Origin: Methylopila capsulata
GTDB lineage: Bacteria; Pseudomonadota; Alphaproteobacteria; Rhizobiales; Methylopilaceae
Assembly: GCF_016907975.1 (NCBI RefSeq)
Contig: NZ_JAFBCY010000001.1
Coordinates: 620,001 to 684,000, forward strand
Direction of reading: 5' to 3'
DNA: 64,000 nt
Shown here one piece after another: positions 53,037 through 54,595 of the stretch (its first letter is position 1; the number at the start of each line of letters is the position of its first letter). A program made the position numbers and the translations under genes. The notes under the pieces were generated by a model that saw only the letters and a list, made by a program, of their open reading frames with translations, did not search any database and was not told the DNA's origin.

Positions 53037-53390
53037 ATGACCACCGCAACCCTCGACGCCCCCGTCGCTCCCGTCTCGATGACGGAGCGCGCGGCCGGCC
53101 GCATCAAGGAGATCCTCGCCGACGAGGCGCCGGGCTCGAAGCTCCGCGTCAGCGTCCTCGGCGGCGGCTGCTCCGGCTTCAGCTACGACTTCGGCTTTGA
53201 CGTCACCGCCCAGGCGGACGACCTCGTCATCAGCCGCGACGGCGCCACCGTGCTGATCGACCCGGTGTCATTGCCCTATCTCGCGGGGTCCGAGATCGAC
53301 TTCGTCGACGAGTTGATCGGCGCCTCGTTCCAGATCCGCAACCCCAACGCGACCGCCTCCTGCGGCTGCGGCACCAGCTTCGCGATCTGA
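53037..53390 (+). CDS. erpA: Iron-sulfur cluster insertion protein ErpA-like (A-type carrier)
   Basis: A 117-residue A-type carrier. The three conserved cysteines are Cys45 (GGGCSGF), Cys109 and Cys111 (SCGCGTSF). It delivers Fe-S clusters to apo-proteins, including respiratory and isoprenoid enzymes. The ATG at 53037 is the family start; the frame is open upstream over the divergent dgt promoter. It is followed by a 419-base gap that contains a candidate small RNA and terminator, not a direct partner gene. Confidence 0.92.
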   Translation: MTTATLDAPVAPVSMTERAAGRIKEILADEAPGSKLRVSVLGGGCSGFSYDFGFDVTAQADDLVISRDGATVLIDPVSLPYLAGSEIDFVDELIGASFQIRNPNATASCGCGTSFAI

Positions 53391-53600
53391 GATCGTTCGG
53401 AACGTCGGCCCTCGCCTAGAGGAGTCGAGCGTCATGCCTCGAGTAAACTTGGGAATGACGATGCTGCAAGGCGGCGAAACCGTCCCGCAGCGATCAGCGG
53501 CGACGTGCGCCTCGTCACCGCGAACCGTGAGTTTCCAACGGGCGGTCAACCGTTCATTTTCGCTGCGAAACAATAGCGCACCCAAAGCGCGCCTTTTGGC

Positions 53601-53630
53601 CTTGGCATTTCGGCGGCGGCGGGCCACTTA
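53601..53630 (+). promoter_or_regulatory. Candidate promoter for the small RNA
   Basis: CTTGGC at 53601-53606 resembles the alphaproteobacterial -35 consensus CTTGAC. CACTTA at 53625-53630, 18 bases downstream, is a possible -10. Transcription would begin near 53637, giving an RNA of about 97 bases to the T-run. The -10 match is weak. Confidence 0.4.
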
Positions 53631-53636
53631 GGGTTC

Positions 53637-53733
53637 GTACGACGGCGAGCGCTTTCGCGAGCCGTCTTGCAGCCCTCCTTTGGGCGTTTCCTCCCTAGAC
53701 TTGGGCCGCTCGCTTGTCGGGCGGCCTTTTTTT
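53637..53733 (+). ncRNA. Candidate small RNA of the alpha-r8 (MmgR) type
   Basis: The segment holds a first hairpin (GACGGC 53641-53646 with GCCGTC 53661-53666), a second hairpin (GCCC 53672-53675, loop TCCTTT, GGGC 53682-53685), the unpaired decamer TTTCCTCCCT at 53687-53696, and a terminator hairpin. As I recall the alpha-r8/MmgR family, it is defined by exactly this unpaired UUUCCUCCCU between stem-loops and a Rho-independent terminator, in alphaproteobacteria, with RNAs of about 80 bases. MmgR limits polyhydroxybutyrate storage in Sinorhizobium. The C/U-rich decamer can pair with ribosome binding sites. The 5' end is uncertain. Confidence 0.65.
53704..53733 (+). terminator. Rho-independent terminator before xthA
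   Basis: GGCCGCTCG (53704-53712) pairs with CGGGCGGCC (53718-53726) with one G-U pair and a 5-base loop. It is followed directly by TTTTTTT (53727-53733). It lies 314 bases after the erpA stop, too far for a simple erpA terminator unless the 3' UTR is long, and so fits best as the end of the small RNA. Confidence 0.88.
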
Positions 53734-53809
53734 CTGCCTGCGCCCTCGCGGGCCGTCGCCAAGACCGTTAGGTCTGGCGCACGCGCCGCCCGCTCCGGAG
53801 GACCGCCCC

Positions 53810-54595
53810 GTGCAGATCGCCACCTGGAACGTCAACTCGGTCAAGTCCCGGCTCGACCTGCTGCTGCGCTGGCTCGCCGAGGCGAAGCCAGACGTCGTGT
53901 GCCTGCAGGAAATCAAGTGCGTGGACGAGGCGTTCCCGCGCGCCGCCATCGAGGACGCCGGCTACCACGTCGCCGTCCATGGCCAGAAGACCTACAACGG
54001 CGTCGCCATCCTCTCGCGCCTGCCGCTCGAGGACGTGACGCCCCGCCTGCCCGGCGACGACGGCGACGACCACGCCCGCTTCATCGAGGCGGTGGTCTCG
54101 GCGCCGTCGGGGGCGGTGCGCGTCGCCGGCATCTATCTTCCGAACGGCAACCCCGCGCCGGGGCCGAAATACGACTACAAGCTCGCCTGGATGGAGCGCC
54201 TGCGCGCCTACGCCGCAGATCGGCTCCGGCTCGAGGAGCCGCTGATCATCGCCGGCGACTACAACGTGATTCCCGCCCGCGCCGACGCCAGGCGTCCCGA
54301 CGCCTGGGTGGAGGACGCCCTGTTCCGTCCCGACACCCGCGCCTCCTGGCGCAAGCTGCTCGCGCTCGGCCTCACGGAGGCCGTCCGCGCCTGCGACGAC
54401 GCCGAGGGGCTCTACAGTTTCTGGGACTATCAGGCCGGCGCCTGGCAGAAGAACGACGGCATCCGCATCGACCACCTGCTGCTCTCGCCGCAGGCCGCCG
54501 ACCGGCTGGTCACGACGCGGATCGACAAGCACGTACGAGCGTGGGAACGGCCGTCGGACCATGTCCCGGTAGTCGCGGAATTCGCGTTCGGATAG
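53810..54595 (+). CDS. xthA: Exodeoxyribonuclease III
   Basis: A 261-residue endonuclease/exonuclease of base-excision repair. The family residues are seen in WNVNSVKSR, CLQEIKCVDEAFP (metal Glu), YNGVAILSR, GDYNVIP (Asp/Asn pair) and SDHVPVVAEF (catalytic His). I start at GTG 53810, with GGAGG 8 bases upstream. The frame is open from 53714, but that would translate through the terminator region. The erpA-xthA neighbourhood is common in the order. Confidence 0.93.
   Translation: MQIATWNVNSVKSRLDLLLRWLAEAKPDVVCLQEIKCVDEAFPRAAIEDAGYHVAVHGQKTYNGVAILSRLPLEDVTPRLPGDDGDDHARFIEAVVSAPSGAVRVAGIYLPNGNPAPGPKYDYKLAWMERLRAYAADRLRLEEPLIIAGDYNVIPARADARRPDAWVEDALFRPDTRASWRKLLALGLTEAVRACDDAEGLYSFWDYQAGAWQKNDGIRIDHLLLSPQAADRLVTTRIDKHVRAWERPSDHVPVVAEFAFG

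Follow-up and report, generated by a model that had tools for sequence, protein, structure and literature searches.

Results

On the evidence of its sequence, the element that lies between the erpA-like and xthA-like genes of Methylopila capsulata is a genuine small RNA gene of the MmgR/alpha-r8 family and a further copy of that family in the genus, and the conclusion that it is a family member at a new, genus-wide location, with a promoter unlike those of its siblings, is well supported. The interpretation which we favour, and which we hold to be highly probable, is that the element is a paralogous alpha-r8/MmgR/SisA gene which has its own promoter and encodes a trans-acting anti-Shine-Dalgarno RNA of ~97 nt, the siblings being divided by their promoters. 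A genus-wide sibling of this kind offers a testable case of how duplicated small RNAs with one seed may divide their work by promoter, through the presence or absence of a PHB-sensing site.

Family membership and anatomy of the element

The original prediction identified the decamer-bearing element as an alpha-r8/MmgR RNA and proposed a search with the alpha-r8 covariance model as a check. This search bore the identification out: the Rfam model RF00519 (suhB/MmgR, alpha-r8; Rfam name mmgR) matches positions 53665-53741 on the + strand over its full length (1-77 of 77) with 69.0 bits, well over the gathering cut-off of 41 (E 3.7e-12), and this is the sole gathering-level Rfam match in the window, by which we mean the whole 64 kb stretch of DNA that was analysed. 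In a permissive scan of the short segment 53400-53820, RF00519 was recovered with E 2.4e-14 and none of the other Rfam families listed reached its own cut-off, the next best scoring 21.9 bits against 50. The traits of the family are present, namely an unpaired UUUCCUCCCU 3' of a weak hairpin (in the predicted fold), a Rho-independent terminator and an intergenic, trans-encoded position. Linkage to the FGase gene, usually seen where a species has a single copy, is absent here and is found at the sister copy L005; its absence does not exclude membership, because further siblings in Caulobacter have been described at other places.

The element occupies the + strand of the intergenic region between the end of erpA at 53390 and the start of xthA at 53810. 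The upstream gene (53037-53390, + strand) encodes an A-type Fe-S carrier like ErpA (Pfam PF01521, 64.3 bits), and the downstream gene (53810-54595, + strand), an exonuclease gene (Pfam PF03372) which we take to be xthA, begins with GTG 76 nt past the T run. The strand 53637-53733 (97 nt, with a putative transcription start near 53637) is predicted to fold into three stem-loops with an energy of -45.9 kcal/mol (z -3.45 against 200 shuffles): a 5' hairpin, SL1, at 53637-53670, which lies mostly beyond the Rfam match and whose segment 53639-53669 has a folding z of -2.72; a weak hairpin, SL2, with the stem GCCC-GGGC at 53672-53685; and the terminator at 53703-53727. The decamer TTTCCTCCCT (= UUUCCUCCCU) at 53687-53696, the presumed anti-Shine-Dalgarno seed, has all 10 of its bases unpaired in this fold, between SL2 and the terminator, in agreement with the earlier description of a 10-base tract held between two hairpins, and it occurs once in the window compared to 0.03 occurrences expected by chance. 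The strong seven-T terminator of the original prediction is likewise present, as a Rho-independent terminator at 53703-53733 which combines a 10-pair stem (z -4.15) with Ts at 53727-53733; the region 53390-53815 contains five terminator-like sites, compared to 0.9 in shuffles, and this site has the most pairs. SL1, and two other copies in the genome, go beyond what had been noted before.

The -35-like box CTTGGC which had been proposed upstream is found at 53601-53606 and is followed, after an 18-nt spacer, by a -10-like box, CACTTA, at 53625-53630, both on the + strand and the latter recognized by eye; CTTGG, or a box resembling it, is seen by eye at roughly this position in many of the erpA-xthA copies. 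A strict consensus scan for sigma-70 promoters across the erpA-xthA gap produced 0 matches, so the promoter call rests on the combination CTTGGC-18 nt-CACTTA together with partial likeness in relatives, as judged by eye. The consensus sequences of sigma-54 and EcfG promoters were also compared with the copies by eye, and these promoter types were rejected, the pattern being inconsistent across copies. Further upstream, the element TTTCGCTGCGAAACAATAGCGC (53558-53579, + strand) recurs in 5 of the 13 genus genomes at a similar distance from the -35 place (by eye), these being the same five genomes that have the MFS-linked copy described below; it was considered as the mark of a regulon and discarded, since it has a single occurrence in the genome at up to three mismatches.

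Copies in the genome and in relatives

The genome of M. capsulata contains three strong RF00519 copies: L005, which sits between the IMPase and FGase genes, the usual location of the family; L007, which adjoins an MFS gene; and the erpA-xthA copy. A fourth hit, L008 (30.5 bits), is without the decamer and was dropped, and sub-threshold hits of relatives were left out except for those named here. Each of the 13 genus genomes has the FGase copy and the erpA-xthA copy, and five of them have the MFS copy. Within 1.5 kb flanks, erpA accompanies 11 of the 13 erpA-xthA copies, xthA accompanies 12 and both accompany 10; the xthA start lies 37-76 nt past the T run, on the same strand, in 12 of the 13 genomes, and in the remaining one, G007, the RNA is still beside erpA but ~246 kb away from xthA. 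RF00519 matches over the cut-off are found in 18/18 genomes of the family and in 235/297 genomes of the order, and two of 14 control genomes (Caulobacter vibrioides and Thermus composti) give hits, one of them over the cut-off.

The decamer is invariant in the 13 erpA-xthA copies, all of which also have a 5' hairpin (z -0.87 to -2.95, median -2.24). Over 38 loci examined, hairpins of differing sequence occupy the SL1 place in most, with L016 and L043 having no comparable one, in a comparison that scores the presence of a hairpin rather than compensatory changes and whose alignment misplaces the SL1 stem of the M. capsulata subclade. As a side observation, the likeness of core and terminator between erpA-xthA and FGase copies is 0.873 within genomes and 0.847 between them (shuffle 0.0006, not corrected for phylogeny), a difference which may reflect either concerted change or plain relatedness.

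The position next to an Fe-S carrier gene had been singled out as notable. Among the best 80 named xthA loci, 53 have a nearby erpA in the same orientation (with a gap below 170 bp in 32 of these 53), and the RNA core is present at one of the 80; the pairing of erpA and xthA is thus common without the RNA and indicates no tie to Fe-S metabolism, and the RNA looks like a later insertion into an old erpA-xthA gene pair. At the one locus that has it, L048, the core TTTCCTCCC has RNA-like surroundings; this locus belongs to a record labelled Chelatococcus sambhunathii S14 and is identical across 2.6 kb to the genus genome G014. The core was found at none of the other 79 loci, within flanks of up to 3 kb per side (shorter for some), and XthA identity is 61-70% at these RNA-less loci compared to 74% or more within the genus. 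A decamer core near xthA was likewise found in none of five genomes from two sister genera, and the available text of the Caulobacter SisA study (PMC12559287) contains no mention of the erpA-xthA location.

Promoter contrast between the siblings

In Sinorhizobium meliloti, PhaR binds a palindrome at the mmgR and phasin promoters, according to the part of PMC12542648 consulted. The core YGCRNYGCR, derived from this palindrome, was sought from 160 to 20 nt 5' of the decamer, and it is present in all FGase copies (14/14) and all MFS copies (5/5), but in 1/13 of the erpA-xthA class and 1/6 of the remaining copies; the background, among 457 blocks of 140 nt from the window, is 15.5%, which places the erpA-xthA class at chance level. 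The FGase copies have two PhaR-like sites 21-22 bp apart, with a third in L009, and the MFS copies have one near the promoter. When the span was widened to 300 nt, the loose motif appeared in 5/13 erpA-xthA copies, and the strict form TGCRNYGCA in 0/13 of these, 3/14 FGase copies and 5/5 MFS copies. Genes for PhaR and three phasins are present in the genome, and as a positive control at least two PhaR-like sites, 31-34 bp apart, were found at 12/12 phaP1 orthologues with a found start, the thirteenth, L151, being left out of the count for want of one. A likely PhaR regulon in the genus includes the FGase copies, the MFS copies and the phaP1 orthologues. The erpA-xthA copy is without the presumed PhaR operator of its sisters, and given the count of one site in 13 it probably answers to another signal. 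In four loci of the sister genus g3 (L012, L015, L017 and L023), an upstream stretch like ATATACGCATGCC resembles by eye the ACGCATGAC found before MFS copies, and the two are perhaps one old promoter type.

The link to carbon-storage control that accompanied the original prediction is reported for MmgR in Sinorhizobium and would be conjectural for the erpA-xthA copy, which has no PhaR-like site of the kind found at its two sisters. The S. meliloti MmgR is a single-copy RNA of 77 nt controlled by PhaR and NtrC, as described in the available parts of PMC12542648 and PMC12559287. The M. capsulata copy shares with it the full-length covariance match, the decamer, SL2 and the terminator, but differs in its predicted length of ~97 nt, its added 5' hairpin, its status as one of three copies and its missing PhaR-like site. 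Another parallel is offered by SisA-D of Caulobacter crescentus, which the consulted part of PMC12559287 describes as alpha-r8 siblings that share one 10-mer, have unrelated promoters and include a copy by FGase. Several siblings, a shared 10-mer, differing promoters and one copy by FGase are features of both species, whereas in M. capsulata a PhaR-like site is present at two of the siblings and absent from the third.

Proposed mechanism and search for targets

Transcription would begin at the element's own promoter near 53601-53630 and would produce an RNA of ~97 nt ending at the terminator. This RNA probably binds Hfq, whose gene is present in the genome (111.3 bits), and its unpaired UUUCCUCCCU would cover the Shine-Dalgarno regions of several mRNAs and lower their translation, as is the case for SisA in Caulobacter. 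The available text of PMC12559287 reports for SisA that the decamer pairs with the ribosome-binding region, that compensatory mutations support the pairing of SisA with CCNA_03574, and that a sponge RNA, CrfA, exists; the M. capsulata RNA should, by homology, act like SisA. Since the three siblings have the same seed and different promoters, one set of targets could answer to different signals, with the FGase and MFS copies probably responding to PHB status via PhaR and the erpA-xthA copy to something else.

Target prediction with the decamer as seed, which had been suggested as a check, yielded no target above controls. The target pattern GGGAGGAA before start codons gave 9 matches (8 sites) compared to 9 for the reversed pattern, so there is no excess. 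The duplex with the genome's own phaP1 has an energy of -18.9 kcal/mol, which does not pass the 5% quantile of -19.5 in a null composed of the window's 106 ORF starts, a set that surely includes non-genes, and none of the genome's own phaP1-3 and mxaG passes this 5% tail; duplexes with 12 phaP1 orthologues range from -9.9 to -20.7 kcal/mol, and L148 alone passes the -19.5 quantile. Exact complements of the decamer in the genome are confined to the strands opposite the three copies and opposite one decamer inside an ORF, and a CrfA-like sponge, sought in the genome as an exact decamer complement only, was not found. The decamer inside an ORF, which is the only other exact one in the genome, is situated near position 1500 of L003 in the coding strand of a 255-aa ORF. 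Near position 1500 of L140, a cytochrome-like ORF, which we presume to resemble MxaG, carries the seed complement GGGAGGAA at 4 nt before its ATG; it is a weak target lead, suggested by the sequence in a possible methylotroph.

Alternative explanations

The most serious rival to a trans-acting RNA is a role in cis, in which the element would be a leader whose terminator sets transcription into xthA, as an attenuator or conditional terminator, with the small RNA being minor or with both roles combined. The close spacing of xthA on the same strand in 12 of the 13 genus genomes fits this explanation, as does the part of the phage loci described below in which the RNA and its terminator precede terminase genes behind a NusG-like antiterminator gene. 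But linkage to xthA is not needed, as the separation of the two in G007 demonstrates, the two sister copies have different neighbours, and the decamer is invariant in the erpA-xthA copies; we regard a role in cis as unlikely.

It is more improbable still that the element only duplicates the FGase-linked copy, being redundant or silent and having no function of its own. Its core and terminator are 74-94% identical to those of the FGase copy of the same genome (13 genomes) and the target searches produced no target, as such a duplicate would lead one to expect, but against this stand its retention in all 13 genus genomes, the unchanging decamer and the hairpin of the 5' part. Membership of another anti-Shine-Dalgarno family (AbcR/alpha-r15 or the 'cuckoo' type alpha-r14), or a chance likeness in an orphan terminator, is scarcely credible: although AbcR RNAs are described in the accessible part of PMC7143759 as partly homologous to RF00519, RF00519 alone passes its cut-off, and neither AbcR/alpha-r15 nor alpha-r14 is among the families listed at the region, where RF00519 is the best and overlapping lower matches of the same clan are not displayed. 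A paralogous family member which acts in trans from its own promoter thus remains the preferred reading.

Related RNAs in prophages, phages and plasmids

Two genus genomes contain weaker copies, at 47 bits (L043) and 44.3 bits (L044 and L045, which are identical over the 3078 nt compared). These copies (1480-1580 in L043 and about 1500-1577 in L044/L045) are flanked by an S24 repressor gene on one side and a CII-like gene on the other, an arrangement like that of a prophage control region, and for this reason viral contigs were searched. The 15-mer GGGCGTTTCCTCCCT was found in at least 120 stretches, compared to 32 for a one-base variant and 34 for a reversed control, and the exact 36-nt consensus in 31. 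Among 17 hand-picked viral loci, mostly short, Rfam RF00519 confirmed 14 and missed L218, L219 and L231. A model, R2, trained on host copies only, recovered at E <= 0.001 106 of the 120 GGGCGTTTCCTCCCT loci (among the matches listed), with at least 45 bits in 75, and it recovered 5/32 one-base-variant loci and, at E <= 0.01, 1/34 reversed-pattern control loci; preselection by the 15-mer inflates the R2 scores, so that the band of at least 45 bits and the 36-mer are the stronger evidence.

Such RNAs are rare in named phages, since 3 of 50,697 records have an alpha-r8-like sequence at E 0.01: Microcystis phage Mwe-JY08 and Bradyrhizobium phage ppBeUSDA76-1, each with an alpha-r8-type match of 62.8 bits, and ppBdUSDA122-1, which matches by BLAST only and is below the Rfam cut-off. 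BLAST of a prophage copy against named phages returned short matches only, and a 40-nt query did better. Plasmid records with an alpha-r8-like sequence number 56 of 72,556, many of them from Methylobacterium and Azospirillum (H24-H53).

Gene context was evaluated, among the matches listed, at the 68 distinct viral loci that had enough sequence to either side. A crude ORF picker supplied three sets, the first two restricted to the strand of the RNA: the 60 nearest upstream ORFs, 105 downstream ORFs and, as controls, 92 ORFs at a distance of over 4 kb. The 60 upstream ORFs include 16 that match the antiterminator family phrog_6386 and 14 that match Pfam NusG, compared to at most one and none, respectively, of the 92 controls; the Pfam list for the controls is complete, and phrog_6386 is not among the 25 families listed for them, a list that takes in every family having two or more members. 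In 28/92 distinct viral loci long enough to contain one (among the matches listed), a same-strand NusG-like protein is encoded no more than 1.5 kb upstream, compared to 1/92 elsewhere in the locus and 1/87 control loci; the profile was built from the 16 phrog_6386 ORFs, which are part of the same set, so the position is the independent part of this result. In 43/68 loci the first ORF downstream shares the strand of the RNA. Terminase genes are frequent on this side, though some loci have none: the 105 downstream ORFs include large terminases (up to 9 per family), small terminases (5) and HNH proteins (4), with no terminase in Pfam among the 92 controls. Against a single gene order, 64/92 viral loci have no NusG-like gene by the NusG-like profile, and several upstream ORFs are terminase or capsid genes in their own right, such as Phage_capsid_4 in 4/60 and Terminase_6N in 2/60.

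Gene order alone suggests that antitermination may operate at the phage alpha-r8 RNA, and it invites a broader reading, which we put forward tentatively and consider rather doubtful: alpha-r8 would be a module shared by alphaproteobacteria and phages, at once a trans-acting anti-Shine-Dalgarno RNA and an antiterminator-controlled leader. Placed between a NusG-like antiterminator and the packaging operon, it would yield a terminated form that acts on mRNAs as long as the late operon is silent, and packaging would be started by read-through. Ahead of xthA the erpA-xthA copy shows the leader arrangement again, and its ancestor may have been a mobile copy of this sort. It is in the phage module that specialists could find a surprise. 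The consulted literature presents alpha-r8 as a host regulator of carbon use; its presence in many viral contigs, in part of them preceded by NusG-like antiterminators and followed by terminases, would give the family a phage side as well and would raise questions of mimicry, late-gene control and the lateral spread of host small RNAs. The phage module looks unreported in the literature searched, in which no title or abstract concerns phage-borne alpha-r8, though work on the phylogeny of the family may already mention phage or plasmid copies.

The late leader of phage lambda runs from pR' through the 6S RNA to tR'. Part of the phage loci similarly have an alpha-r8-like RNA and terminator between antiterminator and packaging genes, but the antiterminator is NusG-like and not Q, the RNA is from a host small RNA family, and the likeness is one of gene order alone. 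In ppBeUSDA76-1 and ppBdUSDA122-1 the order is a NusG-like gene, the RNA, HNH, further small genes, terminase and portal, and in most of the 28 NusG-like loci a terminator-like hairpin with a T run is also seen by eye 5' of the RNA.
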